Shown here: piece after piece, positions 26,954 through 50,580 of the stretch
Layout: each line of letters opens with the position of its first letter
How positions within the stretch are numbered: the first letter of the stretch is position 1
Origin: Aminobacter anthyllidis
Lineage (GTDB): Bacteria; Pseudomonadota; Alphaproteobacteria; Rhizobiales; Rhizobiaceae
Length of the DNA stretch: 64,000 nucleotides
Direction of reading: 5' to 3'
Assembly (NCBI RefSeq): GCF_018555685.1
Contig: NZ_JAFLWW010000004.1
Span: 372,001 to 436,000, forward strand
The notes under the pieces: generated by a model
Seen by the model: only the letters and a program-made list of their open reading frames with translations
Database searches by the model: none
Told to the model about the DNA's origin: nothing
Position numbers and translations under genes: made by a program

Positions 26954-26957
26954 GATT

Positions 26958-27695: not shown

Positions 27696-27703
27696 GGAAC
27701 AAA

Positions 27704-29032
27704 ATGAGCTATCACAATCCTCCGACGACGCCACGTAAGTCGGCCACGTTCGATGAATACGCGATGTCCGAAATCCGTCGCGCCGCAGCGACCGGCATCT
27801 ACGACATTCGCGGCTCCGGTGCGAAGCGCAAGGTCCCGCATTTCGACGACCTGCTGTTCCTCGGCGCCTCGATCTCGCGCTATCCGCTCGAAGGCTACCG
27901 CGAAAAGTGCGACACCACTGTCGTGCTGGGCACCCGTTTCGCCAAGAAGCCGATCGAGCTGAAGATCCCGATCACGGTCGCCGGCATGAGCTTCGGCTCG
28001 CTGTCGGGCCCGGCCAAGGAAGCCCTTGGCCGCGGCGCAACGCTGTCCGGCACCTCGACCACCACCGGCGACGGCGGCATGACCGAGGAAGAGCGCGGCC
28101 ATTCCAAGCAGCTGGTCTACCAGTACCTGCCGTCGCGCTACGGCATGAACCCGCGTGACCTGCGCCGCGCCGACGCCATCGAAATCGTTGTCGGCCAGGG
28201 CGCAAAGCCAGGCGGCGGCGGCATGCTTTTGGGCCAGAAGATCTCCGACCGCGTCGCCGAGATGCGCACGCTGCCCAAGGGCATCGACCAGCGCTCGGCC
28301 TGCCGTCACCCCGACTGGACCGGTCCGGACGATCTCGAGATCAAGATCCTCGAAATCCGTGAAATCACCGACTGGGAAAAGCCGATCTACGTCAAGGTTG
28401 GCGGCGCACGCCCCTACTACGACACCGCGCTTGCAGTAAAGGCTGGTGCTGACGTCGTCGTGCTCGACGGCATGCAGGGTGGCACGGCTGCGACCCAGGA
28501 AGTGTTCATCGAGCATGTCGGACAGCCGACGCTTGCTTGTATCCGTCCGGCAGTGAAGGCGCTGCAGGATCTCGGCATGCACCGCAAGGTTCAGCTCATC
28601 GTCTCCGGTGGCATACGCAATGGTGCTGATGTGGCCAAAGCGCTGGCGCTCGGTGCCGATGCAGTATCGGTCGGTACCGCGGCACTTATCGCACTCGGCG
28701 ACAACGACCCGCGTTGGGAGGAAGAATACCAGAAGCTTGGCACCACTGCCGGTGCCTACGACGATTGGCACGAGGGCAAGGACCCAGCCGGCATCACCAC
28801 GCAGGACGTCGAGCTGATGAAGCGCGTCGATCCGATCGCGGCTGGTCGCCGTCTGGCGAATTATCTCAAAGTCATGACGCTTGAGGCACAGACGATTGCC
28901 CGTGCCTGCGGCAAAAATCACCTGCACAATCTCGAGCCTGAGGATCTCTGCGCTCTTTCGATCGAAGCTGCCGCCATGGCTGGCGTGCCGCTTGCGGGGA
29001 CAAGCTGGGTACCTGGTAAGGGTCCCTTTTAA
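27704..29032 (+). CDS. mgsC: N-methylglutamate synthase subunit C (FMN-binding glutamate synthase domain; GlxD-like)
   Basis: 442 residues forming the FMN TIM-barrel of glutamate synthase. KIPITVAGMSFGSLSGPAKE (~residue 87), STTTGDGGMTEEERGHSK (~120), VGQGAKPGGGGMLLGQKISD (~165), VDVVVLDGMQGGTAATQEVF-like sequence near 250 and IVSGGIRNGADVAKALALGA (~300) are FMN- and substrate-binding elements. Cys residues near ARACGKNHLHNLEPEDLC in the C-terminal part could serve an iron-sulphur site, but the classic 3Fe-4S spacing is not clear. It should receive ammonia or methylamine from MgsA and reductively add it to 2-oxoglutarate. gmaS starts 27 bases later. Confidence 0.92.
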   Translation: MSYHNPPTTPRKSATFDEYAMSEIRRAAATGIYDIRGSGAKRKVPHFDDLLFLGASISRYPLEGYREKCDTTVVLGTRFAKKPIELKIPITVAGMSFGSLSGPAKEALGRGATLSGTSTTTGDGGMTEEERGHSKQLVYQYLPSRYGMNPRDLRRADAIEIVVGQGAKPGGGGMLLGQKISDRVAEMRTLPKGIDQRSACRHPDWTGPDDLEIKILEIREITDWEKPIYVKVGGARPYYDTALAVKAGADVVVLDGMQGGTAATQEVFIEHVGQPTLACIRPAVKALQDLGMHRKVQLIVSGGIRNGADVAKALALGADAVSVGTAALIALGDNDPRWEEEYQKLGTTAGAYDDWHEGKDPAGITTQDVELMKRVDPIAAGRRLANYLKVMTLEAQTIARACGKNHLHNLEPEDLCALSIEAAAMAGVPLAGTSWVPGKGPF

Positions 29033-29059: not shown

Positions 29060-30403
29060 ATGGGTACGGCCTTCGAAGCCAAAATCGATCAGTCAGAGGT
29101 GACCGATCTCAGAGAGTTCGCAAGAGCTCGCAACATCAGATACTTCATGGTCTCGTATACGGACCTGTTCGGCGGCCAGCGCGCCAAGCTGGTTCCGGCC
29201 CAGGCCATCTCGGACATGCAGAAGGACGGAGCCGGCTTTGCCGGCTTCGCGACCTGGCTGGATCTGACGCCTGCACACCCCGACATGCTTGCCGTGCCGG
29301 ACCCGCTTTCGGTCATCCAGCTGCCGTGGCGGCCGGAAGTGGCTTGGCTAGCGTCTGACTGCCTGATGGAAGGCAAGGGCGTTGCCCAGGCTCCGCGCAA
29401 CACGCTGAAGCGTCTTGTCGCCGAAGCTGCCAAGGAAGGCATGCGCGTCAAGACCGGCGTCGAGCCGGAATTCTTCCTGACGACTCCGGATGGCAATCAG
29501 ATTGCCGACGAGTACGATACGGCTGCAAAATCCTGCTACGACCAGCAGGCCGTGATGCGCCGCTTCGACGTCATCGCCGAAATCTGCGATGCCATGCTCG
29601 ACCTTGGCTGGAAGCCCTACCAGAACGACCATGAGGACGCGAACGGCCAGTTCGAAATGAACTGGGAGTACGACGACGTTCTGCAGACCGCCGACAAGCA
29701 TTCCTTCTTCAAGTTCATGGTTCGCTCGATCGCCGAAAAGCACGGCCTGCGCGCGACCTTCATGCCGAAGCCCTTCCAGGGGCTCACGGGCAGCGGCTGC
29801 CATGCCCATATCTCGGTATGGGATCTTGCCGGCAAGTCCAACGCCTTCGCCGACAAGAACATGGAACTCGGCCTGTCGGAGAAGGGCCGTCACTTCCTCG
29901 GCGGCATCATGAAGCACGCCTCGGCACTCGCCGCGATCTGCAACCCGACCGTCAACTCCTACAAGCGCATCAACGCACCGCGCACTGTTTCGGGTGCGAC
30001 CTGGGCACCGAACACGGTGACCTGGACCGGCAACAACCGTACCCACATGGTGCGTGTGCCCGGTCCCGGCCGCTTCGAACTGCGTCTGCCCGACGGTGCT
30101 GCCAACCCGTACCTGATGCAGGCGATCATCATCGCCGCCGGCCTCAGCGGCATCCGCTCCAAGGCCGATCCCGGTCCGCGCAGCGACGTCGACATGTACC
30201 GCGAGGGCCACACCGTCACGCATGGTGCCAAGCTGCCGCTCAACCTGCTCGACGCGCTTCGCGCCTATGATGAAGACAGCGAGCTGAAGGCTGCCATGGG
30301 CGAGGAGTTCTCCGCCGCCTATGTCAAGCTCAAGCACCAGGAATGGAACTCCTACGCTTCCCACTTCACCCAGTGGGAACGCGACCACACGCTGGACGTC
30401 TGA
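29060..30403 (+). CDS. gmaS: Gamma-glutamylmethylamide synthetase (GlnT/GlnA-III-like)
   Basis: 447 residues, glutamine-synthetase fold: beta-grasp start (YFMVSYTDLFGGQRAKLVPA), then catalytic blocks KTGVEPEFFLTTPDG (~135, metal-binding Glu), YQNDHEDANGQFEMNWEYDD (~190-210), FMPKPFQGLTGSGCHAHISV (~235-255) and NNRTHMVRVPGPGRFELRLP (~325-345). GmaS ligates methylamine to the gamma-carboxyl of glutamate with ATP, the first step of the indirect methylamine pathway. Between mgsABC and mgdABCD this role is far more likely than glutamine synthesis. GGAGGAGCAA precedes the ATG. Confidence 0.92.
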   Translation: MGTAFEAKIDQSEVTDLREFARARNIRYFMVSYTDLFGGQRAKLVPAQAISDMQKDGAGFAGFATWLDLTPAHPDMLAVPDPLSVIQLPWRPEVAWLASDCLMEGKGVAQAPRNTLKRLVAEAAKEGMRVKTGVEPEFFLTTPDGNQIADEYDTAAKSCYDQQAVMRRFDVIAEICDAMLDLGWKPYQNDHEDANGQFEMNWEYDDVLQTADKHSFFKFMVRSIAEKHGLRATFMPKPFQGLTGSGCHAHISVWDLAGKSNAFADKNMELGLSEKGRHFLGGIMKHASALAAICNPTVNSYKRINAPRTVSGATWAPNTVTWTGNNRTHMVRVPGPGRFELRLPDGAANPYLMQAIIIAAGLSGIRSKADPGPRSDVDMYREGHTVTHGAKLPLNLLDALRAYDEDSELKAAMGEEFSAAYVKLKHQEWNSYASHFTQWERDHTLDV

Positions 30404-30486: not shown

Positions 30487-31740
30487 ATGAAATACTCGAT
30501 CTTCTCACTCGCCAAGGCAGCTTTGTCCGGCCACAAGGGCTGGACCCGGGCCTGGCGCGATCCGGCACCCAAGAGCCACTACGACGTGGTGATCATCGGC
30601 GGCGGCGGCCATGGCCTGGCCACTGCCTACTTCCTCGCCAACGAGTACGGCATCCGCAATGTCGCGGTGCTTGAAAAGGGCTGGATCGGCTCCGGCAATG
30701 CCGGCCGCAACACCACCATCATCCGCTCCAATTACGGCCTTCCAGGCAATACCGGCTTCTACGAGATGTCGATGAAGCTGTGGGAGCGCATGGAGCAGGA
30801 CCTTAACTACAACGCGATGGTTTCCCAGCGCGGCATCATCAACCTCTACCATTCTGATGCCCAGCGCGACGCCTTTGCCCGTCGCGGCAACACCATGCGC
30901 ATCAACGGCATCGACGCCGAACTGCTCGACGCGGCGCAGATCCGCAAGGAACTTCCGTTCCTCAATTATGACAGCCCACGCTTCCCGATCATGGGCGGGC
31001 TCATGCAACGCCGCGGCGGCACTGCCCGCCACGATGCGGTCGTGTGGGGTTATGCCCGTGCTGCCGACCAGCGCGGCGTCGACATAATCCAGAATTGCGA
31101 GGTCACCGGCTTCGTGCGCGATCACAACGGCAAGGTCACCGGCGTCGAGACGTCGCGCGGCAAGATCAGCGCCGGCAAGGTCGGCATGGCGGTCGCCGGC
31201 AACACCTCGCGCGTTGCCGCCATGGCCGGCATGAAGCTGCCGATCGAAAGCCACGTGCTGCAGGCCTTCGTCTCCGAGGCGATCAAGCCGCTCATCCCCG
31301 GTGTTATCACCTTCGGCGCCGGCCATTTCTACATCAGCCAATCCGATAAGGGCGGCCTTGTCTTCGGCGGCGACCTCGACGGCTACAACTCCTACGCCCA
31401 GCGCGGCAACATGCCGGTAGTCGAGGACGTCTGCGAAGGCGGCATGGCGGTAATGCCGATGATCGGCCGCGTCCGCATGCTGCGCCAGTGGGGCGGCATC
31501 ATGGACATGTCGATGGACGGCACGCCGATCATCGACAAGACGCCGATCGACGGCCTCTATCTCAACGCCGGCTGGTGTTATGGCGGCTTCAAGGCAACGC
31601 CTGCTTCCGGCCTCGTCTTCGCCCATCTGCTGGCGCGCGACGAACCGCACCCAGAGGCTGCGCGCTTCCGGCTCGACCGGTTCCGCCGCGGCGCGATGAT
31701 CGATGAAAAGGGCCAGGGCGCCCAACCCAACCTGCACTGA
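30487..31740 (+). CDS. mgdA: N-methylglutamate dehydrogenase subunit A (SoxB-like, FAD/FMN)
   Basis: 417 residues related to the beta subunit of heterotetrameric sarcosine oxidase. YDVVIIGGGGHGLATAYFLA (~residue 32) is the dinucleotide site, GWIGSGNAGRNTTIIRSNY (~62) follows as in the DAO family, and RRGGTARHDAVVWGYARAA (~175) carries the histidine that in SoxB binds FMN covalently. YLNAGWCYGGFKATPASG (~360) closes the flavin site. It oxidises N-methylglutamate to glutamate and a C1 unit. An 83-base gap after gmaS holds no terminator, so one operon is likely. Confidence 0.92.
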   Translation: MKYSIFSLAKAALSGHKGWTRAWRDPAPKSHYDVVIIGGGGHGLATAYFLANEYGIRNVAVLEKGWIGSGNAGRNTTIIRSNYGLPGNTGFYEMSMKLWERMEQDLNYNAMVSQRGIINLYHSDAQRDAFARRGNTMRINGIDAELLDAAQIRKELPFLNYDSPRFPIMGGLMQRRGGTARHDAVVWGYARAADQRGVDIIQNCEVTGFVRDHNGKVTGVETSRGKISAGKVGMAVAGNTSRVAAMAGMKLPIESHVLQAFVSEAIKPLIPGVITFGAGHFYISQSDKGGLVFGGDLDGYNSYAQRGNMPVVEDVCEGGMAVMPMIGRVRMLRQWGGIMDMSMDGTPIIDKTPIDGLYLNAGWCYGGFKATPASGLVFAHLLARDEPHPEAARFRLDRFRRGAMIDEKGQGAQPNLH

Positions 31741-31756
31741 AAGCGAGACTGGCGGA

Positions 31757-32065
31757 ATGCGTATTGCATGTCCTTTCTGCGGCGAACGCGAGAATGGCGA
31801 GTTCACCTATCTCGGCGACGCTTCGCCCAAGCGGCCCAACTTCGCAGTCGATAGCGGCGAAAGCCCTGGGGGCGTCGAGGACGCCTTCTACGACTATGTC
31901 TATCTGCGCGACAACGTCGCCGGCTACATGCGCGAGTACTGGTACCACGGCGGCGGTTGCCGCTCCTGGCTGATAGCCGAGCGCAACACGGTGACGCACG
32001 AATTCAGATCGGTGACCGCAGCCCCAGGCGTTGGCGCGGCCAAGCCGGTGCAGGCAGGAGAATAA
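31757..32065 (+). CDS. mgdB: N-methylglutamate dehydrogenase subunit B (SoxD-like)
   Basis: 102 residues, the usual size of sarcosine oxidase delta subunits. RIACPFCGERENGEFTYLGD at the start has the C-x2-C of the zinc site; its other ligands (a His and a Cys in WYHGGGCRSWL, ~65-72) are also present. The DAFYDYVYLRDNVAGYMREY segment is typical of the family. The subunit is structural. It lies 16 bases after mgdA and two before the mgdC ATG. Confidence 0.92.
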   Translation: MRIACPFCGERENGEFTYLGDASPKRPNFAVDSGESPGGVEDAFYDYVYLRDNVAGYMREYWYHGGGCRSWLIAERNTVTHEFRSVTAAPGVGAAKPVQAGE

Positions 32066-32067
32066 AC

Positions 32068-35000
32068 ATGTCGGGCTATTCCGGATCCGAACCGCTCGGC
32101 AGGACGGCCGCACTTGAGGGAACAACCCCAAGTGCGCGCAGCCAGGCAGCATCGGCCAGCCAGTCGCACCGGCTGCGCAGCGGCGGTCTGATCGATCGCC
32201 AGCAGCCACTGCAGTTTTCTTTCGACGACAAGGTCATGTCGGGCTTTGCCGGCGACACGCTCGCCTCCGCACTCGTTGCCAACGGTGTCAAGCTGGTGGC
32301 GCGTTCGTTCAAGTACCATCGCCCGCGCGGCATCATCACCGCCGGTTCCGAGGAGCCGAGCGCGCTGGTGGAAATGCGCACCGGCGCCCGCAAGGAACCA
32401 AACACCCGCGCCACCACGCAGGAGCTCTATGACGGGCTTGTCGCCCAGAGCCAGAACCGCTGGCCGTCGCTGCGCCGCGACTTCATGTCGATCAACCAAC
32501 TGTTTTCGCCGATCTTCGTCGCCGGCTTCTACTACAAGACCTTCATGTGGCCGGCGAAGTTCTGGGAGGCGATCTACGAGCCGATCATCCGCCGCGCCGC
32601 CGGTCTCGGCAAAAGCGCGGCGCTGCCCGACCCCGATCACTACGACAAGGCCTGGGCGCACTGTGACGTGCTCGTCATCGGCGGCGGCGCGGCTGGTCTT
32701 TCGGCCGCCTTGGCGGCTGGCCGTGCCGGTTCGCGTGTCATCCTCGTTGAAGAAGACAGCCGCCTTGGCGGCCGCCTGCTCAGCGATGGCGGCGAGATTG
32801 ATGGCATGCATGCCGAGGAGTGGGTGCGTCGTACGACCGACGAACTCACAGCGCTTGCGAATGTCCGCATCATGGTCCGCACCGCGCTGTTCGGCGTCTA
32901 TGATGGCGGCGTCTATGCCGCGCTCGAGCGCGTCAACGACCACGTTCCGGTGCCGGGTCCGCATCAGGTCCGCCAGCGCGTCTGGCGTATCGTCGCCAAG
33001 CGCTCCGTCGTGACAGCCGGCGCCATCGAGCGCCCGGTCGTCTTCCCGGGAAATGACCGCCCGGGCGTGATGATGGCGTCCGCCGTGCGCACCTATGTCC
33101 ACCGCTTCGCTGCGATGCCGGGCCGCAAGGTTGCCTTGTTCACCAACAATGACGACGGCTGGCGCACGGTCGAGGCCGTCCAGCAGGCGGGCGGCGACAT
33201 CGCCGCTGTCATTGACCCGCGCGGAAAAGTGCCGGCGGAATATCAGGCGCTGGCCGAGCTCTCCGACCTGCGCGTGTTTTCGGGCGGCGTCTCGGACGTC
33301 AAGGGCGGCGTGGACGGTGTACGTGGTGTTGTCGTCACCGACGGCAACGGCCGCACCCAGCAGATCGACGCCGACTGCCTCGCCGTCTCAGGCGGCTGGA
33401 ACCCGAATGTAGGGCTCTCCTGCTTCCACCGCGGGCGGCCTGTCTGGCGCGACGACATCGCAGCCTTTGTTCCCGGGGATTCGCCCAAGGGCATGACCAC
33501 GGCTGGTGCCGCCAATGGTGAATTCTCGCTCGGCGCCTGCCTGCGTGATGGCCATGCGGCTGGTGTCGCAGCCGCCGCAGAATGCGGCGCGACTGGCAAT
33601 GCCGGCGAGGCGGCGGAGGCCGGCGACGAAATCTATGCGATCTCACCGCTCTGGCAGGTCAAGGCCAAGGGCAAGGCGTTCGTCGACTTCCAGCACGACG
33701 TCACCGCATCGGACGTGACGCTGGCGCAGCGCGAAGGTTTCGAGAGCGTCGAACACCTCAAGCGTTACACCACGCTTGGCATGGCGACCGACCAGGGCAA
33801 GACCTCCAACATCACCGGCCTTGCGATCATGGCCGAAGCCACCGGCCGCACCATCCCGCAGACCGGCACGACGATCTACCGTCCGCCCTATGCACCGGTG
33901 GCGATCGGCGCGCTCGCCGGGCATCACCGCGACGAGAATTTCCACGCCTGGCGCTTGACCCCGTCGCATCACTGGGCAGCGGCCCGGGGCGCTGTCTTCG
34001 TCGACACCGGCCTGTGGAAGCGCGCGCAGTGGTATCCGCAGCCTGGCGAGAAGGACTGGATTGAATCAGTTACCCGCGAAGTGCTCGCGGTCCGCAACGG
34101 CGTTGGTTTCTGCGATGTCTCCACGCTCGGCAAGGTTGACGTGCGTGGCGCGGATGCCGGTACCTTCCTCGACCGTGTCTACATCAATGCCTTCTCTTCG
34201 CTTGCCGTGGGCAAGGCGCGTTACGGCCTGATGCTGCGCGAAGACGGCATCGTCATGGACGACGGCACGACCTCGCGTATCGCCGAAGACCACTATTTCC
34301 TGACCACCACCACGGCCAAAGCCGGTCCTGTGATGGCGCATCTCGAATTCTGCCGCCAGGTGCTCTGGCCCGAGCTCGACGTGCAGCTGTCGTCGGCGTC
34401 GGATCAGTGGGCGCAGTTCTCCATCGCCGGGCCCAACACCCGCAAGCTGCTGCAGGAACTCGTCGATCCGTCCGAAGACATGTCCAACGAAGGCTTCCCC
34501 TTCATGGGCGCTCGCGAGGTCATGCTGCGCGGCGGTATCACCGCGCGCCTGTTCCGCATCTCGTTCTCCGGCGAAATCGCCTTCGAAATCTCGGTCCCCG
34601 CCCGCTACGGCGGTGCCATGGCGCAAAACCTGATGATTGCCGGTCGTGATCTGGGCGTCACGCCCTATGGCACCGAAGCACTCGGCGTCATGCGCATTGA
34701 AAAGGGCCACGTCGCCGGGCCAGAGCTCAACGGCACCACGACCGCCGACGATCTTGGCCTTGGCAAGATGATGTCGAAGAAGAAGGACTTCATCGGCCGC
34801 GTCATGGCTGGCCGCGAAGCGCTGACGGCACCCGACCGCCAGGTGGTTGTCGGCATCAAGCCGCTTGACCAGAAGCGTCGCCTGCGCTCCGGCGCGCATG
34901 TCTTGCCCAAGGGGGCGATACCTGGTCCTGAGACCGACCAGGGCTACGTCACCTCGGTCTGCTATTCGCCGATGCTGGAGCAATGGATCGGTCTTGGCCT

Positions 35001-35130
35001 GGTCGAACGCGGCCGCGAGCGCTTCGGCGAAATCGTGCGCATCCACGATCCGCTGCGCAACGAAGACTATGAAGCCGAAATCTGCAACCCAGTCTTCTAT
35101 GATCCAGAAGGAGCGCGCCAGCGTGGTTGA
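32068..35130 (+). CDS. mgdC: N-methylglutamate dehydrogenase subunit C (SoxA-like alpha subunit)
   Basis: 1,020 residues from the ATG at 32068 (AGGAGAATAA just before it). Order: N-terminal ferredoxin-like/2Fe-2S-derived fold (LQFSFDDKVMSGFAGDTLAS, RSFKYHRPRGI); NAD/FAD part with CDVLVIGGGAAGLSAALAAG (~205) and RPVVFPGNDRPGVMMASAVR (~330); then from ~600 a GcvT-type aminomethyltransferase part (HHWAAARGAVFVDTGLWKRA, IAGPNTRKLLQELVDPSE, GVMRIEKGHVAGPELNGTTT) that in SoxA binds tetrahydrofolate. The C1 unit is probably handed to THF as 5,10-methylene-THF, the substrate of GlyA encoded 4 kb downstream. Its stop overlaps mgdD by eight bases. Confidence 0.92.
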   Translation: MSGYSGSEPLGRTAALEGTTPSARSQAASASQSHRLRSGGLIDRQQPLQFSFDDKVMSGFAGDTLASALVANGVKLVARSFKYHRPRGIITAGSEEPSALVEMRTGARKEPNTRATTQELYDGLVAQSQNRWPSLRRDFMSINQLFSPIFVAGFYYKTFMWPAKFWEAIYEPIIRRAAGLGKSAALPDPDHYDKAWAHCDVLVIGGGAAGLSAALAAGRAGSRVILVEEDSRLGGRLLSDGGEIDGMHAEEWVRRTTDELTALANVRIMVRTALFGVYDGGVYAALERVNDHVPVPGPHQVRQRVWRIVAKRSVVTAGAIERPVVFPGNDRPGVMMASAVRTYVHRFAAMPGRKVALFTNNDDGWRTVEAVQQAGGDIAAVIDPRGKVPAEYQALAELSDLRVFSGGVSDVKGGVDGVRGVVVTDGNGRTQQIDADCLAVSGGWNPNVGLSCFHRGRPVWRDDIAAFVPGDSPKGMTTAGAANGEFSLGACLRDGHAAGVAAAAECGATGNAGEAAEAGDEIYAISPLWQVKAKGKAFVDFQHDVTASDVTLAQREGFESVEHLKRYTTLGMATDQGKTSNITGLAIMAEATGRTIPQTGTTIYRPPYAPVAIGALAGHHRDENFHAWRLTPSHHWAAARGAVFVDTGLWKRAQWYPQPGEKDWIESVTREVLAVRNGVGFCDVSTLGKVDVRGADAGTFLDRVYINAFSSLAVGKARYGLMLREDGIVMDDGTTSRIAEDHYFLTTTTAKAGPVMAHLEFCRQVLWPELDVQLSSASDQWAQFSIAGPNTRKLLQELVDPSEDMSNEGFPFMGAREVMLRGGITARLFRISFSGEIAFEISVPARYGGAMAQNLMIAGRDLGVTPYGTEALGVMRIEKGHVAGPELNGTTTADDLGLGKMMSKKKDFIGRVMAGREALTAPDRQVVVGIKPLDQKRRLRSGAHVLPKGAIPGPETDQGYVTSVCYSPMLEQWIGLGLVERGRERFGEIVRIHDPLRNEDYEAEICNPVFYDPEGARQRG

Positions 35131-35755
35131 TTATCTCTGGAACACCCAATCACCGCTGCAGAAGGCGCTTGTTCCCGGCCGTCATGGCGCAGCTGGAGCA
35201 CATGCAGGCGTGACGCTCAACGAAGTGCGCGACATCGTGCTGGTGCAGGTCATGGCACGGCGCGGCAAGGCAGCGGAAACCGGCAAGGCGGCCAAGAAGC
35301 TGTTCGGCGTGGAGGCACCTGCCACGCCGAAGGCTGTCATTGGCAAAACCGCCACGTTGATATGGTCCGGCCCCGATCAGTTCACTGTCATCGCACCACG
35401 TACAGACGAGGCCTCGCAGCTTGCGGCCATGGCGCAGGTCTTTGCCGGATCAGCATCTTTGTCCGACCAGTCGGATGGCCGCTGCCTGATAAGGGTTTCA
35501 GGCCCGCGTGGCCGCGATGCCATCGCCAAGTTCTCGTCGCTTGATCTGCACGACCTGGCCTTTCCGGTCGGCGCTGCGGCGAACACCTCGGTCGACCACA
35601 CGGCGGTGAACCTGTGGCGCGAGGCAAATGGCGCTGACGGGCACCCAGTCTACAACATGCTGGTCTTCACCAGCTTTTCCGACAGCCTGTGGCACACCAT
35701 CGTGGATTCGTCGCTGGAGTATGGCGTCGAGGCGGCGAGCGCCCGGGCGGCCTGA
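35123..35755 (+). CDS. mgdD: N-methylglutamate dehydrogenase subunit D (SoxG-like gamma subunit)
   Basis: 210 residues from a GTG at 35123, set by GAAGGAG ten bases upstream and by the eight-base overlap with mgdC. LRD-type beta strands, DQFTVIAPRTDEASQLAAMA (~95) and SLSDQSDGRCLIRVSGPRGR (~118) are the truncated GcvT fold typical of sarcosine oxidase gamma. The subunit is needed for assembly, not for catalysis. It ends the operon; a strong terminator follows after ~20 bases. Confidence 0.9.
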   Translation: MVDYLWNTQSPLQKALVPGRHGAAGAHAGVTLNEVRDIVLVQVMARRGKAAETGKAAKKLFGVEAPATPKAVIGKTATLIWSGPDQFTVIAPRTDEASQLAAMAQVFAGSASLSDQSDGRCLIRVSGPRGRDAIAKFSSLDLHDLAFPVGAAANTSVDHTAVNLWREANGADGHPVYNMLVFTSFSDSLWHTIVDSSLEYGVEAASARAA

Positions 35756-36657: not shown

Positions 36658-39366
36658 ATGAATGGGTGCCGCTTGGAGGAGAGCAGACCACTCAGCTTTC
36701 GCGAGGACGTCCGCAGCCTGTTGTTCAGGGTGCTTTTGGCCGTCGTCAGCGAACGCGAGCCCGATATGGCGGAGGTGCTGACCGGCCGTGCGAGCCTCGA
36801 CGCGCTTGAAAGCGGGCAACGCATCGCTGCGTTGCAGGCAACCGGCATCTGGTTCCAGCTCGTCGCCATTGCCAATGAGCTTTTGGCCATGCGGTCGCGT
36901 CGTGAGCTGGAGCAGATGGGAGGCGCTGACGAGGTCATCGGCTCCTTCGCCAATGTCGTGGGCGAGATCGCCGCCGCCGGCTACCCGGCCGAGGAGATCC
37001 AGACTACCCTCGACGGGCTCAGTGTCGGGCCGACAATGACGGCGCATCCGACCGAAGCCAAGCGCGTCACTGTGCTCGAAATTCATCGCCGTATCTATCG
37101 CAAGCTGACCGAACTCGAACAGCAGCGCTGGGCGCCGCGCGAACGCGAACAGCTGATCGACGATCTCAAGAGCGAGATCGAGCTTCTGTGGATGTCGGGC
37201 GAGCTTCGGCTCGAGCGCCCGTCGGTCGAACGCGAGATCGCCTGGGGCCTGCACTTCTTCCGAGAGGTCATATTCGAGGCCACACCTAAGCTCTACGACT
37301 CGGTCGAAGAGGCGCTCGCTCGCCACTATCCGGAATACGATCTGAAGGTGCCGTCCTTCATGCGCTATGCCTCCTGGATCGGCGGCGACCGCGACGGCAA
37401 TCCCAATGTCACCGCCAAGACCACGGCCTATGCGCTCAACGAGTGTCGCCAGGCGATCATCGGCTGGTATATCGGCCAGGTGCGCAAGCTGGTCACCGTG
37501 CTCAGCATCAGCGCCAATGTCGTCGATGTCCCTGATGCCTTCATCAAGGCGCTGGGGCATGCGCTGCACCGCAGTGGCAATGCCTCGGAGATCGTCGCGC
37601 GTAATCCCGACGAGCCGCTGCGCCAGTTCGCTGCCGCGATGCTAGATCGCCTGGAAGCGATGCGCGGCGAGGCCTCGGCCAAGCCTTATGCCCGCTCTGA
37701 TGGCTTCAAGACCGACCTGCGCGAGCTTGAAAACGTGCTGGCCCAGCTCGGCGGCAAGCTGATCGCCAGACGCTTCGTCCGGCCCTTGCGCCAACAAGTC
37801 GAAACCTTCGGTTTCCGTACCGTCTCGCTCGACATCAGGCAGAATTCCACCGTCGTCAATCGCGTGCTGGCGGAACTGTTCAAGCTTGCCGATCCGGCTG
37901 CGGCGCCAGCACCCGATACGCCACAATGGACGCAGCGTATACGCGCGGCGCTGAACTCCGGCGAACAGCTGGAAGTCGACCGGCTGGCATTGTCTGAAGA
38001 AGCACAGGAACTGCTCGACCTGTTCGATGTCATCCGCAAGGCTTCGGCTGGCTTGAATGGCGGTGCCGTCGGCGCCTTCATCCTGTCAATGACGCGGTCG
38101 AGCGACGATCTTCTGGCCGTCTATCTGCTGGCGCAGTATTCCGGCTTGGCCACGGCGATGGACGGCAGCGGAACCATCGCGCTCCGCGTTGTCCCGCTGT
38201 TCGAGACCATTACCGATCTGCGCGCAGCGCCCGAAATCCTCGACCAGCTGTTCGGCGTCTCGATCGTGCGCCGCTCGGTGCGCGATTTCGGCAACGCCCA
38301 GGAAGTGATGCTCGGCTACTCCGACTCCAACAAGGATGGCGGCTTCCTTGCTTCCAACTGGGAGCTGAACAAGGCACAGCGCCGCATCACCGCGCTCGGC
38401 ATCAAGCGCAAGGTCAAGATCAGCTTCTTCCACGGTCGCGGCGGCTCGGTCAGCCGCGGCGGTGCGCCGACGGGCAGGGCGATTGCCGCTCAACCAGCTG
38501 GCACGATCGGCGGCGCGATGCGTGTCACCGAACAGGGCGAGGTTGTGTCGTCGAAGTTCGCCAATCGCGGCACCGGGCTCTATCAGCTCGAAATCCTTGC
38601 CGCGAGTGTCTTTGCCCACAGCGTCAAGTCGCCGAATGAAGCCGAGCTGAAGGACATTCCCGAGTTCAGCGAGGCACTGGAAGCGCTGACAGGCATGTCG
38701 CAGGCCTCATATTCGGGCCTGATCAACGAGCCCGGCTTCATCGACTACTTCCACCAGGCAAGTCCGGTCGAGGAGTTGTCGCTGCTCAAGATCGGCTCGC
38801 GCCCGGCGCGGCGTTTCGGTGCTCGCGACATCTCCGACCTGCGCGCTATCCCTTGGGTCTTTGCCTGGAGCCAGAACCGTCATCTCTTGACCAACTGGTA
38901 CGGTATCGGCAGCGCGCTGAACTCTTTCGTCAATGTGCGCGGCGATGCCGGCCTGGAATTGCTCCAGCAGATGTTCGAGCGTTCACGCTTCTTCCGGCTC
39001 GTCATCGATGAGGTCGACAAGGGCCTCTACCAGTCCGACATGGACATCGGAAAGCTCTATGCCGGGTTGGTGCAGGAACGCGAGGTTGGCGAGCGCATCT
39101 ACGCTAAGATTTCAGCTGAATATGCGCTGACGCGGCGGATGATCTCCGAGGTCAATGGCGGCTTGAAATTGTCCGAGCGCTTCCCAGCCTTCAAGCGGCA
39201 TTTCGATCGCATCCGCCCGCAGATGGACTCGATCCACCGGCTGCAGGTGCAGCTGTTGCGCGAGGTTCGTGCCCAGGATGATGCCACCGTCAATCCCAAG
39301 CGCGCGGTCAACGCGCTCCTGCTTTCGATCAACTGCATTTCCGCCGGCCTCGGCTGGACCGGATGA
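36658..39366 (+). CDS. ppc: Phosphoenolpyruvate carboxylase
   Basis: 902 residues. VGPTMTAHPTEAKRVTVLEI (~residue 122) has the catalytic His, SWIGGDRDGNPNVTAKTT (~240), MLGYSDSNKDGGFLASNWEL (~553) and KISFFHGRGGSVSRGGAPTG (~588) are the phosphate- and PEP-binding loops, and the protein ends NCISAGLGWTG. It makes oxaloacetate from PEP and bicarbonate. Beside glyA and near a methylamine operon it probably serves the serine cycle. The first ATG is used; the ribosome site is poor. glyA starts 40 bases after the stop, so the two are probably co-transcribed. Confidence 0.95.
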   Translation: MNGCRLEESRPLSFREDVRSLLFRVLLAVVSEREPDMAEVLTGRASLDALESGQRIAALQATGIWFQLVAIANELLAMRSRRELEQMGGADEVIGSFANVVGEIAAAGYPAEEIQTTLDGLSVGPTMTAHPTEAKRVTVLEIHRRIYRKLTELEQQRWAPREREQLIDDLKSEIELLWMSGELRLERPSVEREIAWGLHFFREVIFEATPKLYDSVEEALARHYPEYDLKVPSFMRYASWIGGDRDGNPNVTAKTTAYALNECRQAIIGWYIGQVRKLVTVLSISANVVDVPDAFIKALGHALHRSGNASEIVARNPDEPLRQFAAAMLDRLEAMRGEASAKPYARSDGFKTDLRELENVLAQLGGKLIARRFVRPLRQQVETFGFRTVSLDIRQNSTVVNRVLAELFKLADPAAAPAPDTPQWTQRIRAALNSGEQLEVDRLALSEEAQELLDLFDVIRKASAGLNGGAVGAFILSMTRSSDDLLAVYLLAQYSGLATAMDGSGTIALRVVPLFETITDLRAAPEILDQLFGVSIVRRSVRDFGNAQEVMLGYSDSNKDGGFLASNWELNKAQRRITALGIKRKVKISFFHGRGGSVSRGGAPTGRAIAAQPAGTIGGAMRVTEQGEVVSSKFANRGTGLYQLEILAASVFAHSVKSPNEAELKDIPEFSEALEALTGMSQASYSGLINEPGFIDYFHQASPVEELSLLKIGSRPARRFGARDISDLRAIPWVFAWSQNRHLLTNWYGIGSALNSFVNVRGDAGLELLQQMFERSRFFRLVIDEVDKGLYQSDMDIGKLYAGLVQEREVGERIYAKISAEYALTRRMISEVNGGLKLSERFPAFKRHFDRIRPQMDSIHRLQVQLLREVRAQDDATVNPKRAVNALLLSINCISAGLGWTG

Positions 39367-39406
39367 CCCAGATTTCAGGCGCCTCAGGCGCTGCTAGGAG
39401 GAGCCT

Positions 39407-40711
39407 ATGAATATCCCTACCAGACCCGGCATCGGCAGTGCCCGCAACTTCTTTCGCACCGGCGTCGCGCAGGCGGATCCAGCCGTCAGCGCTTCGATGG
39501 ACCGCGAACTCCAGCGCCAGCGCGACGAGATCGAACTGATCGCGTCGGAAAACATCGTCTCCAGGGCGGTGCTCGAGGCGCAAGGCTCGGTTCTGACCAA
39601 CAAGTACGCCGAGGGCTATCCCGGCCGTCGCTACTATGGCGGTTGCGCTTACGTCGACGAGGTCGAGAATCTGGCGCGCGAACGCGCCAAGACGATGTTC
39701 AACTGCAGCTTCGCCAACGTCCAGCCCAATTCGGGCAGCCAGGCCAACCAGGCGGTGTTCATGGCGCTGATGCAGCCGGGCGACACGTTCCTCGGCCTCA
39801 ATCTGGCCGCCGGCGGCCACCTTACCCATGGCGCGCCGGTCAACCAGTCCGGCAAGTGGTTCAACGTCGTCTCCTATGGCGTCAAGCCCGACACGCATCG
39901 CATCGACATGGACGAGGTCCGCGACCTGGCCAAGAAGCACCAGCCCAAGGTGATCCTTGCCGGTGGCTCGGCTTATCCGCGCATCATCGACTTCAAGGCG
40001 TTCCGTGAGATCGCCGACGAGGTTGGCGCCAAGCTGTTTGTCGACATGGCGCATTTCGCCGGTCTGGTTGCCGGTGGCGTGCACCCCAACCCGCTCGAAC
40101 ACGCCCATGTCGTGACGACAACCACGCACAAGACCTTGCGCGGCCCGCGCGGCGGCATGGTGCTGTCCAATGACGAAGAGATCGGCAAGAAGATCAATTC
40201 GGCGGTTTTTCCGGGCCTTCAGGGCGGTCCGCTGATGCATGTCATCGCCGCCAAGGCGGTCGCCTTCGGCGAGGCGCTGACGCCCGACTTCAAGGTCTAT
40301 GCCGCCAACGTCGTCTCCAACGCCAAGGCGCTGGCCGAAACGCTGCAAGAGGGTGGTGTCGACATCGTCTCCGGCGGCACTGACACGCATCTGATGCTTG
40401 TCGACCTGCGCCGCAAGAACCTCACCGGCAAGGCCGTGGAAGCCTCGCTCGGCCGTGCCCATATCACCTGCAACAAGAACGGCATTCCGTTCGATCCGCA
40501 GGGGCCGATGGTCACATCGGGTGTTCGTTTAGGCACGCCGGCATGCACGACGCGCGGTTTCCTCAATGAAGAGTTCCGCCAGGTTGGCCGCATGACGATG
40601 GCCGTCATCGACGGGCTTGCGGCTAATGGCGAGGAGGGCAACGCCAAGATCGAGGCTGCCGTTCGTGAAGAAACGCACGATTTGGTCAGCCGATTCCGAA
40701 TCTACGACTGA
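39407..40711 (+). CDS. glyA: Serine hydroxymethyltransferase
   Basis: 434 residues, PLP enzyme. [20 protein letters not shown] (~44), [16 protein letters not shown] (~65), [20 protein letters not shown] (~210) and [20 protein letters not shown] (~235, Schiff-base Lys in the HKT element) are the family marks. It adds the C1 unit of 5,10-methylene-THF to glycine to make serine, the entry reaction of the serine cycle. AGGAGGAG at 39396-39403 fixes the start at 39407. Coupling with ppc suggests a dedicated methylotrophy copy; whether another glyA exists elsewhere cannot be seen. Confidence 0.96.
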
Positions 40712-46860: not shown

Positions 46861-46877
46861 CCCTCATTTTGACAGCA

Positions 46878-47064: not shown

Positions 47065-47140
47065 CCCACAAAATCCAATCGATTCAATGTCATTCGGCTT
47101 TGTCGAAAGTCGCAGTGCGACAAGTGCGCGCGGTCGTCAC

Positions 47141-47191
47141 TTGACAGGAAATTAACTTTGCCAGACATTCCTCAGGGGAAATTAATTTCCC
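47141..47191 (+). promoter_or_regulatory. Promoter with twin palindromic operators of the small-subunit permease operon
   Basis: TTGACA (47141-47146) is a perfect -35 box; GACATT 17 bases on is a possible -10. GGAAATTAACTTTGCC (47147-47162) fills the spacer, and GGGAAATTAATTTCCC (47176-47191), a perfect palindrome, lies about 29-30 bases further on, close to three helical turns. Both share GGAAATTAA. This is a typical setting for a dimeric repressor binding twice. Confidence 0.55.
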
Positions 47192-47242
47192 GCAGAAGCA
47201 AACCAAAATGAAGCCGAAAACGGCCGTGGTGGAGGAGGAAAT

Positions 47243-47560
47243 ATGGAAGCGACTATAAGTCAGCAACGCGGGGACGCGACTCTCGAGCAGCGCATCGACA
47301 AGATGCATAGCCGTGATCGAGCGGGCCTCGTGGTTTTCGTTGCGGTGCTCTGGTGCACCATGTTGTTCGCGCTGTTCAACATCTGGTCCTACATCTCGGT
47401 CCCAGCCATCCGCGTCATCCTGTCGATTGCCTGCGGCCTGGTGCTGGCCTTCAACACGGCGGCTATCGTCGCCATGCTGCGCCATTACGTCGAAGACAAA
47501 CATTTCATCTATGGCCTCGACATCAAGCATCTCGACGAGATGCGTCGCCGTCGGGGCTAA
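47243..47560 (+). CDS. Small membrane protein 1 of permease operon
   Basis: 105 residues. Charged N-terminus (DATLEQRIDKMHSRDRAG), two membrane helices at ~32-80 (LVVFVAVLWCTMLFALFNIW and VILSIACGLVLAFNTAAIVA), then a polar end FIYGLDIKHLDEMRRRRG. GGAGGAGG precedes the start closely. Not recognised as a named family. It is the first gene of a four-gene unit with two further small membrane proteins and an APC permease, so it may be an accessory subunit. Confidence 0.72.
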   Translation: MEATISQQRGDATLEQRIDKMHSRDRAGLVVFVAVLWCTMLFALFNIWSYISVPAIRVILSIACGLVLAFNTAAIVAMLRHYVEDKHFIYGLDIKHLDEMRRRRG

Positions 47561-47570
47561 GGAGCGCACA

Positions 47571-47954
47571 ATGGCTTACAAACCACCGAAACAGGGCCTC
47601 GCCGGCCAGATTTTCGACGTCGTGACCTTGCTCGTGCTGACCATCGGCGCACTTTATATTCCGCTCTATCTGGGCCTGGCGGGCGCGGTCAAAGTGCCGA
47701 ACCCGATCGCCAATCCGACCTGGGAGGCGCTCGGCCAGAACGCCGCCGAGCAGCAGCAGTGGGCAGCCCTCGGCATCACCGACCCGGCCGCTGCCAACGA
47801 CATCATCACCGCCCGCTTCGACTACAGCTTCAGCTGGAGCGCGCTGATCGTCATGGCCGTGCTGGTCATCGGCTATTTCGTCATGGTGGTCCGCCTGTCC
47901 GACCGTGAGTACCGCGAAGTCATCGAAGAGCGCTTCGGCGACAAGAAGCGCTAG
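47571..47954 (+). CDS. Small membrane protein 2 of permease operon
   Basis: 127 residues from the ATG at 47571 (AAGGAG upstream). Two membrane helices, VVTLLVLTIGALYIPLYLGL (~17-36) and SALIVMAVLVIGYFVMVVRL (~90-109), flank a ~50-residue loop with NPTWEALGQNAAEQQQWAAL that probably lies in the periplasm. The C-terminus is charged (SDREYREVIEERFGDKKR). Function unknown; ten bases after gene 1 and eleven before gene 3. Confidence 0.72.
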   Translation: MAYKPPKQGLAGQIFDVVTLLVLTIGALYIPLYLGLAGAVKVPNPIANPTWEALGQNAAEQQQWAALGITDPAAANDIITARFDYSFSWSALIVMAVLVIGYFVMVVRLSDREYREVIEERFGDKKR

Positions 47955-47965
47955 GGGAGGCCACA

Positions 47966-48133
47966 ATGGATACCTGGAATTATCTCGAATACGCGGCCTG
48001 GGCACTATCCGCACTTTTCGGCGTGCTGATGCTCATCGACCTCGTCCGCATCGACACCACCTACGACAACGAACTGCTGATCTCCTCTCGCGAAGGCGAG
48101 ATAGAGGCGACTGCAGAACGCCACGAGATCTGA
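47966..48133 (+). CDS. Small membrane protein 3 of permease operon (55 residues)
   Basis: MDTWNYLEYAAWALSALFGV opens a single membrane helix, followed by an acidic tail with RIDTTYDNELLISSREGEIE. GGGGAGG lies eight bases before the ATG. The next gene starts ten bases after its stop. Not recognised. Tight spacing and a good ribosome site argue for a real gene. Confidence 0.7.
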   Translation: MDTWNYLEYAAWALSALFGVLMLIDLVRIDTTYDNELLISSREGEIEATAERHEI

Positions 48134-48143
48134 GGGGGCGACG

Positions 48144-49541
48144 ATGGCAAATGTGACTTCAACCGCAGCCGAGCCGGAACGGCTTCAGCTGCTGCGCGTG
48201 CTCGGCCCCGCCCACATCTGGGCACTCGGCGTCGGCATCGTTCTTGTCGGTGAGTATATGGGCTGGAACTTCTCGGTTGGCAAAGGCGGCATGATTGCCG
48301 GCCTGATCGCCTGCTGGGTCGCCGGCCTGCTCTACACCTGCGTCGCCATGATCGACTCCGAAGTGACCTCGACGGTAGCCGCCGCTGGTGGCCAGTATGC
48401 CCAGGCAAAGCACATCGTCGGCCCGCTGATGGCCTTCAATGTGGGGCTGTTCCTGGTCATGGCCTACACCATGCTGGAAGCAGCCAATGCGATCACCGTC
48501 GGCTTCCTGCTCGACACGGTGGCCGGCTTGCAGGGCCATACAGGGCTCAACCAGCAGCCCTTCATCATCCTCGCCATCATGTTCCTGGCGTGGCTCAACT
48601 ATCGCGGCGTGCTGGCGACGCTGACCTTCAATCTGGTCATCACCGCAATCGCCTTCCTGGCGATCATCACGCTGTTCATCTCGGTGCAGTTTGGCGCGTC
48701 CAACGTGCCGCTCGACTTCTCGGCGATCACCTCCGATCCGCTGCCTTATGGCTGGGTCGGCATCGTCGCATCGTTGCACTTCGGCCTGTGGTACTATCTA
48801 GGCATCGAGGGCACCTGCCAGGCGGCCGAGGAAGTGCGCTCGCCGGCGCGTTCGCTGCCCTACGGCACCATGGCCGGCATCATGACGCTGCTGATCGCGG
48901 CGACCATGACCTGGTATGTCTGCTCGGGCCTCATCCCATGGGAATATCTCGGCCAGGCCGGCACTCCGCTGTTTGATGCCGCGCGCGTCACCGGCAGCAC
49001 CTCGCTGATGATCCTGCTTTTCGTCGGCACGACCTTCGCAACGCTGGCATCGGCCAATGGCTGCATCAACGACGCTTCGCGGGCTTGGTTCTCCATGGGC
49101 CGCGACCGATACCTGCCCAGCTGGTTCGGCGCCGTGCATCCCGTCTACCGCACGCCCTACCGGTCGATCGTGTTCCTGGTTCCGATCGCGCTTATCTTCG
49201 CGCTCGGCGCTCCGCTCGACCAGGTCGTGACCTTCTCGATCCTGTCGGGTCTGCTCGGCTACACCTTCATGACCTTCAACATGGTTATGTTCCGCAACAA
49301 GTGGCCGCTCGACACCATCAAGCGCGGCTATGTGCATCCGTTCCACCCGCTGCCGACGATCGTCCTGCTGATCCTGTGCTCGACCGCCTATTTCGCCGTG
49401 TTCCTCGGCTATGGCACGCAGCTCAGCGCGATGATGTGCTTCTACATCGTGGCGTCGCTCTGGTTCCACTTCCGGCGTTACCAGTTCGTGCGCCGTGGCG
49501 ACCAGTTCACCATGCCTTGGCCGAAGCCGGTCGGGTACTGA
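48144..49541 (+). CDS. APC-superfamily permease (ethanolamine-permease-like)
   Basis: 465 residues with about twelve membrane helices. LGPAHIWALGVGIVLVGEYM and GWNFSVGKGGMIAGLIACWV form the helix-1 unwound region, TVAAAGGQYAQAKHIVGPLM follows, and LWYYLGIEGTCQAAEEVRSP (~residue 215) is the conserved helix-6/7 segment with E-E. This resembles the amino acid/ethanolamine branch of APC transporters. Substrate unknown; in a methylamine user an amine is attractive, but nothing in the operon proves it. The three tiny membrane proteins in front are unusual for APC permeases, which normally work alone. Confidence 0.85.
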   Translation: MANVTSTAAEPERLQLLRVLGPAHIWALGVGIVLVGEYMGWNFSVGKGGMIAGLIACWVAGLLYTCVAMIDSEVTSTVAAAGGQYAQAKHIVGPLMAFNVGLFLVMAYTMLEAANAITVGFLLDTVAGLQGHTGLNQQPFIILAIMFLAWLNYRGVLATLTFNLVITAIAFLAIITLFISVQFGASNVPLDFSAITSDPLPYGWVGIVASLHFGLWYYLGIEGTCQAAEEVRSPARSLPYGTMAGIMTLLIAATMTWYVCSGLIPWEYLGQAGTPLFDAARVTGSTSLMILLFVGTTFATLASANGCINDASRAWFSMGRDRYLPSWFGAVHPVYRTPYRSIVFLVPIALIFALGAPLDQVVTFSILSGLLGYTFMTFNMVMFRNKWPLDTIKRGYVHPFHPLPTIVLLILCSTAYFAVFLGYGTQLSAMMCFYIVASLWFHFRRYQFVRRGDQFTMPWPKPVGY

Positions 49542-49551
49542 CCATACAGTG

Positions 49552-49583
49552 AATGGCGGCGCGGACCTCGCGCCGCCATTTTC
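49552..49583 (+). terminator. Rho-independent terminator of the permease operon
   Basis: AATGGCGGCGCG (49552-49563) pairs with CGCGCCGCCATT (49569-49580) around GACCT, then TTTC. It lies ten bases after the permease stop. Confidence 0.85.
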
Positions 49584-49601
49584 GCAAGCAAGGCACTCCC
49601 C

Positions 49602-50300
49602 ATGATCACCACGCTTGCTTTTTCAGCTTTCGTCGCGGTTTCCTGCGGCTGGATCGGCGTGCGTGCGGTCCGCGAGCATCGCGCCGTCCTTGCCGAACGA
49701 AGGGGCCTGCTCGACGACGCGGCCAAGCTGTTCGACAATGCCCGGATTACTTTCGGACGCGATCATTTTCCCGTACTCGTTGGCCGGCTCGACGACGGCA
49801 GGCGGGCCAAGGTCGAGCTCATCGCCGACACCATGGTCACGCGCCGGCTGCCCCAGCTCTGGCTCAGGGTCACGCTTAGCGAAGGCAAGGAGTGTGCGAG
49901 GCCGACAATCGGTGCGCTCGCCCGCCCGACAGGCGCTGAATATTACTCACTCGTCCACGACATGCCGGAATGGATGACGCCGCCCCAGACCGAAACATCA
50001 CTCCTGATGCGCGGTGACGGTAGCGCGACCGCCTGGCAGGCCGAACGGGTTTCGGCGCTTTTCAGAAGCCTGTTTGCCGACCCGCAGGTCAAGGAAGCAG
50101 TCATCACGCCACGTGGCACACGCGTCATCAGGCAGGCGGCTCAGGGCGATCCTGGCGCGCATAAGGTTCTCCGGCAGGCGCGTTTTCCGCTTAAGGCGAT
50201 CCCGTCCGAACTGGTGAGCTTGGCCATCGCCGAAGCCGAGACGCTGAGTGCCTTGCTGGCTGAAGACGACGATACGATCCCTGCCTACGAAGCAGCTTGA
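49602..50300 (+). CDS. Membrane-anchored protein of unknown function
   Basis: 232 residues. An N-terminal helix (LAFSAFVAVSCGWIGVRAVR) anchors a soluble domain with LVGRLDDGRRAKVELIADTM, TRRLPQLWLRVTLSEGKECA, PTETS-like and TRVIRQAAQGDPGAHKVLRQ. No known motif recognised. It follows the permease terminator by ~20 bases and precedes a small membrane protein gene by nine bases, so the two form a pair. Confidence 0.7.
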   Translation: MITTLAFSAFVAVSCGWIGVRAVREHRAVLAERRGLLDDAAKLFDNARITFGRDHFPVLVGRLDDGRRAKVELIADTMVTRRLPQLWLRVTLSEGKECARPTIGALARPTGAEYYSLVHDMPEWMTPPQTETSLLMRGDGSATAWQAERVSALFRSLFADPQVKEAVITPRGTRVIRQAAQGDPGAHKVLRQARFPLKAIPSELVSLAIAEAETLSALLAEDDDTIPAYEAA

Positions 50301-50309
50301 GGACAACCC

Positions 50310-50573
50310 ATGGCCAAGCCGATCAATCCCTACCTCGTGCTCGCCTTGGCAATCATCTTGCCGGGGGCAGGGCACGTCGCCACGCGCGACGCCATGCGTG
50401 GGCTGGCCTTCGCGTTCTTTGTTGTTTTGTTTTCAGTGATTTCTTACGCCACGACGACGCCGGAAACGTCCTTCATCGGCCGTCATGCCGGGGGACTGTT
50501 CGTCTGGGCGTTATCAATCCCGGACGCCTACCGGCGCGCGCGCCTGCGCTGGGCCATGGTCGAAAGGGCCTGA
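50310..50573 (+). CDS. Small membrane protein of unknown function
   Basis: 87 residues with three probable helices: LVLALAIILPGAGHVATRDA, GLAFAFFVVLFSVISYATTT and GGLFVWALSIPDAYRRARLR. The LPGAGH-A-R element near the first helix is seen in small DUF-type membrane proteins. GAGGACAACCC precedes the start. Function unknown. Confidence 0.65.
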   Translation: MAKPINPYLVLALAIILPGAGHVATRDAMRGLAFAFFVVLFSVISYATTTPETSFIGRHAGGLFVWALSIPDAYRRARLRWAMVERA

Positions 50574-50580
50574 TCGTAGA

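Follow-up and report, generated by a model that had tools for sequence, protein, structure and literature searches.

An APC permease gene and five co-inherited partner genes form a conserved block: a candidate multi-subunit methylammonium uptake system in Aminobacter

The window analysed here is the whole 64,000-nucleotide stretch of Aminobacter anthyllidis DNA at positions 372,001 to 436,000 (forward strand) of contig NZ_JAFLWW010000004.1. It carries a block of six genes, namely an APC permease gene (hereafter APC) and five genes for small proteins with predicted transmembrane (TM) segments, designated s1, s2, s3, s5 and s6 (Table 1). A first-pass annotation had described three small membrane-protein genes of 105, 127 and 55 codons with good ribosome sites, spaced 8-11 bases apart directly before an ethanolamine-permease-like gene and closed by a terminator. 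All four of these open reading frames were found in the described places on the + strand, with 2, 2 and 1 TM segments predicted by hydropathy for s1, s2 and s3, and each start was preceded by a Shine-Dalgarno-like sequence (GGAGG, GGAG, GGGGAGG and GGGGG, in gene order). The packing was as close as described, the measured gaps being 10, 11 and 10 bases. The block does not end at APC as had been supposed, since s5 and s6 are also co-conserved, giving five partners instead of three; s5 begins 60 bases after APC, with a weak AAGG only before its start, and s6 begins 9 bases after s5. The supposed terminator corresponds to a hairpin with only 4 U that is absent from the 7 sites of a terminator scan and is followed by conserved genes, and it is therefore probably an attenuator or mRNA-stabilising element within the operon and not its terminus.

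Table 1. Features of the six-gene block and of the pathway genes upstream of it (positions are those of the window; aa, amino acids)
Feature	Position	Strand	Remarks
s1	47243..47560	+	105 aa; TM predicted at 27-45 and 58-76 (hydropathy); conserved C-terminal tail, DKHFIYGLDxKHLDE
s2	47571..47954	+	127 aa; TM helix, loop of ~55 residues with two short helices, second TM helix, tail EYREVIxERF
s3	47966..48133	+	55 aa; one TM (hydropathy); tail TTYDNELLxSSREGEIE
APC permease, putative carrier core	48144..49541	+	465 aa; TM1 motif VGE(Y/F)MGWN
hairpin between APC and s5	49549..49585	+	-27 kcal/mol, z -4.2; 4 U only
s5	49602..50300	+	232 aa; N-terminal TM and alpha/beta domain, predicted TtfA-like fold
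s6	50310..50573	+	87 aa; two predicted TM segments
candidate operator	47146..47191	+	perfect 16-base palindrome GGGAAATTAATTTCCC at 47176-47191, degenerate copy 30 bases upstream
mgsABC-like, N-methylglutamate synthase subunits	26081..29032	+	start of first reading frame approximate
gmaS, gamma-glutamylmethylamide synthetase type	29060..30403	+	TIGR03105, 667 bits (cut-off 469.6)
mgdABCD-like, sarcosine-oxidase-type beta, delta, alpha and gamma subunits	30487..35755	+	NCBIfam
ppc (start approximate) and glyA, serine-cycle type	36730..40711	+	NCBIfam

Ratios of non-synonymous to synonymous differences (pN/pS) were obtained by comparison with nine related loci (eight for s6), without a shadow-frame control, and were 0.11-0.33 for s1, 0.07-0.15 for s2, 0-0.23 for s3 and 0.03-0.10 for APC. 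These low values indicate that the s1, s2, s3 and APC frames behave as genes. The range was 0-0.34 across all six frames, s5 and s6 included, and by this measure all six are genes under purifying selection, which supports their translation as far as sequence can.

Conservation of the block was examined by scanning a genome contig collection with an s2 alignment; 181 relatives were confirmed, the best 80 were kept and their neighbourhoods were read from codon-scored gene calls, the gene caller having been trained on high-GC genes. The genes s1-s2-s3-APC occurred in the same order on one strand in all 80 loci, s5 in 78 and s6 in 76. Two loci (L062 and L094) stop before the positions of s5 and s6 and a third (L055) stops within s5; only one of the 80 (L029, 12674-20378) kept s1 to s5 on a contig that continues and in which s6 was not found. 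When iterated profiles were applied to 92 loci, comprising the 80, five further genome loci, six plasmid loci and the window, s1, s2, s3 and APC were detected in all 92, s5 in 85 and s6 in 83. The hosts include Aminobacter, Mesorhizobium, Sinorhizobium, Rhizobium, Aureimonas, Rhodobacterales and Paracoccus, and the plasmid records add two Paraburkholderia loci, one with all six genes (L112) and one without s6 in the gene calls (L119). The six-gene order is kept in Rhizobiaceae, Rhodobacterales, Paraburkholderia (L112) and a genome outside the class (G932). Such order in 80 of 80 kept loci is far beyond chance, and sequence comparison could hardly make it more certain that s1-s2-s3-APC-s5-s6 is a single conserved unit of six genes.

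The partner genes and close APC orthologs were inherited together or not at all. Among 247 genomes of the window's family (Rhizobiaceae in GTDB), 31 had s2, and exactly these 31 had APC (E <= 1e-100, identity 68-100%); in a class-wide sample, 6 genomes of 385 had s2. The phylum was sampled with 388 genomes, which gave 14 APC matches of at least 65% identity, and none of the rest, taken to E 1e-25, exceeded 31%. All 14 close orthologs were accompanied by s1, s2 and s3, and 13 by s5 and s6, the contig of the other (L163) ending before both. Of the more distant APC matches, the next 16 loci in rank (27-31% identity) were fetched, and none of them has s1, s2, s3, s5 or s6; nor were partner genes found at three loci of ethanolamine-permease type (L140-L142). 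The small genes are thus conserved next to the permease; the first-pass annotation would have been refuted had they lacked such conservation or translation, and as far as sequence can tell it withstands both checks.

The order mgsABC-gmaS-mgdABCD-ppc-glyA upstream of the block is by homology that of the N-methylglutamate pathway (26081-35755, 11-21 kb from the block) followed by serine-cycle genes. Gene names were taken from PMC4543880 and from the annotations of the pAMI6 and pAA01 records. The NCBIfam models for sarcosine-oxidase-type alpha and beta subunits exceeded their cut-offs, those for delta, gamma and PEP carboxylase fell somewhat under them, and serine hydroxymethyltransferase was named; the glutamate-synthase-like, amidotransferase-like and GXGXG-like proteins matched distant models only. 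In the family sample MgsC was present in 79 of the 247 genomes, and all 31 block genomes were among these (hypergeometric p 3.4e-18 by genome; by genus 19/19 vs 41/109, p 3e-10; both tests ignore the tree). The distance between block and mgsC among the 31 was < 10 kb in 21 and < 50 kb in 25. A member of the pathway cluster lay in 51 of the 80 loci (46 without five loci having a distant glutamine-synthetase-like gene only), and methylamine-pathway genes were the commonest scored neighbours of the block. Some scored methylotrophy gene was present in 62 loci once the distant glutamine-synthetase-like hits were dropped. Of the 80 loci, 14 have genes for dimethylamine monooxygenase (dmm), 14 have tmm and 16 have a TmoP cluster.

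This linkage recurs in other replicons and lineages. On plasmid pAMI6 of Paracoccus aminophilus the block is divergent from mgsA-mgsB-mgsC-gmaS; the mgsABC-gmaS operon of this organism has been described, and the mentions of a "permease" in the available text concern TmoP (PMC4543880). In the genome from outside the class (G932; GC content of the fetched region 46%), the block has mgd, gmaS and mgsA genes as neighbours. Identity to the counterparts in the window is only 29-45% for these pathway genes and 68% for APC. A locus in a genus of another family (L113) exhibits the order regulator-mgsABC-gmaS-block-amt, and L114 differs in having amt between gmaS and the block. The Amt genes of L113 (12743-14406) and L114 (10604-12277) have a neighbour gene of their own for a 78-aa protein, which in L113 has no Pfam match. 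A relationship of this protein to s3 was considered and rejected (s3 profile scores of -1.0 and -1.5 bits), the best score from the s1, s2, s3 and s6 profiles being only 3.4 bits.

Membership of APC in the APC superfamily was evident from PF13520 (89.8 bits, cut-off 24.6) and PF00324 (88.6 bits, cut-off 27). The best NCBIfam match was the ethanolamine permease model TIGR00908, and the earlier label of ethanolamine-permease-like holds as a description (180.3 bits) and fails as an assignment, the curated cut-off being 381.75. The block APCs of congeners scored 177.9-186.6 bits, as against 386.5 bits for L140, which exceeds the cut-off, and 359 bits for L142, slightly under it. No Amt/Mep match (PF00909) was obtained for APC at E <= 1, and the trimethylamine N-oxide (TMAO) permease model for TmoP (NF053774) was absent among the 16 families matched at that threshold; two TmoP proteins from these clusters scored 791 and 833 bits with this model (cut-off 690).

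Glu37, which lies in TM1, was invariant in 89 of 89 orthologs, as were Glu112 and Glu222, in an alignment that includes several close relatives and from which L044, L079 and L083 were omitted. In these three assemblies the APC frame is split, by sequencing error or real loss. Two sequences outside the alignment (L116 and L118) have VGEFTGWN in TM1, so that Glu37 is kept and Met is not. At the position of Glu37, L140 (segment SGHFSGWN) and L142 have His, which we read as a mark of ethanolamine permeases by our own judgement rather than a curated criterion; L141 was left out of this comparison because the reading frame taken there was the wrong one. The solved chains closest to APC are amino-acid transporters (6f34 and 5oqt, known as GkApcT), both with a GTGIF segment in TM1. 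In amino-acid carriers a segment of this type holds the substrate carboxylate. By analogy, Glu37 would bind the ammonium group of the substrate.

No Pfam or NCBIfam model reached its cut-off for s1, s2, s3, s5 or s6; the nearest family match for s6 was DUF6677 (18.6 bits, cut-off 24.3), and 34 s2 relatives gave no convincing family assignment. An AlphaFold model of s2 from the 34 sequences contained helices at 10-33, 58-66, 72-81 and 89-122, the middle two short, with a mean predicted local distance difference test score (pLDDT) of 77 and a predicted template-modelling score (pTM) of 0.38. The s5 model was confident (pLDDT 91, pTM 0.86), with a helix at 2-41 and an alpha/beta domain. A structural comparison of the s5 model placed TtfA at the top (6t84, Z 12.8, root-mean-square deviation 3.3, 150 residues), followed by chains of the multipass or related translocons (7tm3_4, 9i78_4 and 6w6l_7; Z 11.2, 9.4 and 8.5), which we take to be CCDC47; rows beneath these (Z 7.1 or less) were not used. 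TtfA acts as an essential cofactor of MmpL3, to which it binds and whose transport depends on it (PMC6593404). Both likenesses of the s5 model suggest an accessory role at a membrane protein, and neither is proof of one. Invariant residues of s2 and s3 were located both within the TM segments and outside them, in the loop and tails. No fusion of a small protein to APC was seen, though no systematic search for one was made.

All-or-none co-inheritance makes a multi-subunit transporter the best reading of the block, and the methylamine pathway upstream in the window points to its substrate. The first-pass interpretation is partly supported in this respect; the putative transporter would have five partners instead of three. 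From gene context and conservation we infer the substrate, the direction of transport, the complex and the partner roles. It is reasonably probable that the block is a multi-subunit methylammonium uptake system whose partners assemble with or stabilise the APC carrier. That it imports some methylated amine is quite likely, import of methylammonium in particular is probable, and on balance the partners would be lasting subunits rather than assembly factors. In the mechanism proposed, APC would be a carrier importing CH3NH3+ via an acidic TM1 site, Glu37, where amino-acid carriers hold the carboxylate; the substrate would be monomethylamine, possibly dimethylamine too. The proteins s1, s2, s3 and s6 would be integral partners assembling with or stabilising the carrier, and s5 a membrane-anchored domain needed for carrier function, as TtfA is for MmpL3. 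GmaS would then trap the imported methylammonium, which would be metabolised by the N-methylglutamate pathway. More speculatively, the block might represent the first known bacterial multi-subunit APC transporter, with five obligatory partners and high-affinity methylammonium uptake, in which the cytoplasmic tails and the TtfA-like subunit dock the carrier to GmaS and the leaky amine is captured on entry; we offer this extension tentatively.

Several observations weigh against a methylammonium uptake system. In the family sample, 48 of the 79 MgsC-positive genomes lack the block, and block and mgsC lie on different contigs in 5 of the 31 genomes that have both; in another (G485) mgsC is 549 kb from the block, whose locus (L116) has no methylamine gene nearby. 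No scored methylotrophy gene was found in 18 of the 80 loci, some of which are cut by contig ends. At two Paraburkholderia loci, dimethylamine and TMAO genes accompany the block, and none for methylamine was seen. In five Rhizobium-type loci the sole "gmaS" match is ~27% identical to GmaS, so that another amine is possible at these five. The structural searches also contribute. The s2 model had no match in the PDB, the sole listed row (E 9.9) being meaningless, and Foldseek returned nothing for the s5 model at E <= 0.001; its rows for EphA7 and others (E 0.15 or more) were rejected as not credible.

Neighbourhoods of mgs genes in genomes lacking the block were also inspected. Twenty of the 48 were fetched and 19 were usable, the other (L135, 45% GC) having given no gene calls. 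An Amt gene adjoined gmaS or dmm genes in two of the 19, and a different APC of about 400-500 aa lay near mgsA in four. The remaining 13 had neither Amt nor APC, which counts against the proposal, other kinds of transporter (e.g. ABC) not having been sought. The presence of varied transporters near one pathway suggests a transport function, in a sample that is small and mostly empty. The four different APCs (L127, L128, L137 and L138; 395-503 aa), which are ~26% identical to TmoP, are candidate methylamine carriers in their own right.

An alternative is that APC acts alone and that s1-s3, s5 and s6 help to insert or stabilise it as dedicated chaperones, without belonging to the mature carrier. 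The resemblance of s5 to multipass translocon chains fits this view. In our judgement it would be unusual for a single 465-aa carrier to have five dedicated factors, and the invariant residues of s2 and s3 in the loop and tails are placed as on binding surfaces, an argument with which transient binding is also compatible. Dedicated chaperones are therefore a rather unlikely explanation, and lasting subunits remain preferred.

The same transporter unit could instead serve another substrate, such as dimethylamine, ethylamine-like or other small alkylamines, or an amino acid of the pathway, e.g. N-methylglutamate or gamma-glutamylmethylamide. The Paraburkholderia loci, where dmm and TMAO-permease genes stand beside the block, favour this, as do the dmm and tmm genes among the 80 loci and the different glutamine-synthetase-like gene right before s1 in L034 and L110. 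On the other side are the predominance of methylamine-pathway genes among the scored neighbours, the presence of MgsC in 31 of 31 block genomes and the arrangement in the genome of the window, where a dmm subunit gene is on contig C12 and the block, with the methylamine genes, on C25. An amino-acid substrate is opposed by the TM1 of APC, which lacks the GTGIF-type segment of 5oqt and 6f34. In A. niigataensis MD1 the dimethylamine genes are chromosomal and the methylamine genes are on plasmid paAMD1, and most genes of the plasmid methylamine clusters exhibited higher transcript and protein levels on dimethylamine and metformin (PMC9699525). The MD1 block is on paAMD1 (304064-307394), ~19 kb from mgsC. 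A substrate other than methylammonium thus appears unlikely for the unit as a whole.

The glutamine-synthetase-like genes at some loci were observed to differ from gmaS. Those of L030, L032, L034, L053 and L065 encode proteins ~27% identical to GmaS, and the genes directly before s1 in L034 and L110 score far under the TIGR03105 cut-off. The products of these genes may glutamylate another amine.

The first-pass annotation had also raised a permease with a sensor complex, in which APC would sense an amine and signal through s5 or the small tails. The folded domain of s5 on its TM anchor would suit such a transceptor. No recognisable signalling domain was detected over cut-off in s1-s6, and these clusters often have an HTH-cupin regulator of their own, making a sensor improbable. 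Two unrelated operons that are neighbours by chance, a division that the hairpin and the 60 bases before s5 might suggest, are very improbable given the six-gene order kept from Rhizobiaceae to Paraburkholderia and G932.

Known systems resemble the candidate methylammonium transporter in part. The SLC7/SLC3 heteromeric transporters, as generally understood, likewise pair an APC carrier with an obligate membrane partner, which is one large glycoprotein as opposed to five small bacterial proteins for which no family model reached its cut-off; light chains of these transporters appear among the solved chains compared with APC. Ethanolamine permeases of TIGR00908 share with the block APC the TM1 pattern WALGVG...G(H/E)(F/Y)xGWN and the lack of a GTGIF-type segment; the block APC differs in its score under the cut-off, its 24% identity to L140, the Glu for His in TM1 and the partner genes, which L140-L142 lack. 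TmoP is also an APC permease of methylated-amine clusters, and its cluster accompanies some of the block loci; it is only ~14% identical to the block APC in alignment, and NF053774 is not among the matches of the latter. TmoP was described in Methylocella silvestris by Zhu et al. 2014 (cited in PMC5520151 and PMC4543880). In gmaS operons, Amt/Mep proteins are the proposed methylamine transporters in the same kind of cluster as the block and belong to an unrelated family (PF00909); in Pseudomonas sp. C5pp, which has gmas-mgsABC-amt, methylamine entry is assigned to Amt (PMC8292978). The mycobacterial TtfA-MmpL3 pair (PMC6593404) offers a possible parallel for s5, which, like TtfA, would combine an N-terminal TM segment with a domain predicted to fold similarly and is encoded beside a transporter. 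MmpL3 is an RND transporter of another substrate than that proposed for the block, and the likeness of TtfA to s5 is one of predicted fold, with no sequence relation shown.

For related steps, TmoP, TmoXVW and Amt have been published (PMC5520151, PMC8292978), and Table 3 of PMC5023235, which names no permease, neither supports nor contradicts the block. No publication on the block partners was recognised among the open-licence papers searched. Methylated amines, which are nitrogen compounds found in sea and soil, are climate-active; bacteria use the N-methylglutamate pathway as a main methylamine route, and the six-gene candidate makes the uptake step directly testable. Experiments of the 1980s reportedly determined methylamine uptake in 'Pseudomonas sp. 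MA', now Aminobacter aminovorans, without a gene being assigned, and if so the block would be the natural candidate for that uptake. Bacterial APC carriers are usually regarded as acting alone. If the proposal is correct, APC carriers can require a set of small subunits.

Possible regulatory elements were examined around the block. Of 91 other loci, 32 have a site upstream of s1 with at least 12 of 16 matches to the palindrome of the candidate operator (Table 1) and 59 do not. An operator shared with mgsA was not supported, no good copy lying upstream of the window mgsA (best 10.2 vs 26.8); the weight matrix was built from sites ahead of s1, so that the score at 47176 is circular. A sigma-70 promoter scan of 46800-50800 returned 0 sites (1.2 expected). 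An HTH_3-Cupin_2 regulator gene is located at 1772-2512 of the window, and an HTH-cupin regulator of the same kind adjoins mgs/gmaS genes in 16 of the 19 block-less neighbourhoods. The HTH_3-Cupin_2 protein is a candidate regulator of the pathway, perhaps of the block.

Directly after the block, at 50646-55908, the window contains a tyrosine/homogentisate breakdown cluster with hppD, Lrp/AsnC, MarR, hmgA, fumarylacetoacetase-like and maiA genes, named after the corresponding annotated stretch of A. aminovorans pAA01. It is followed at 55911-60203 by a homolog of a putative 2-aminoethylphosphonate ABC transporter, comprising permease, ATPase and binding protein (names per the pAA01 annotation).

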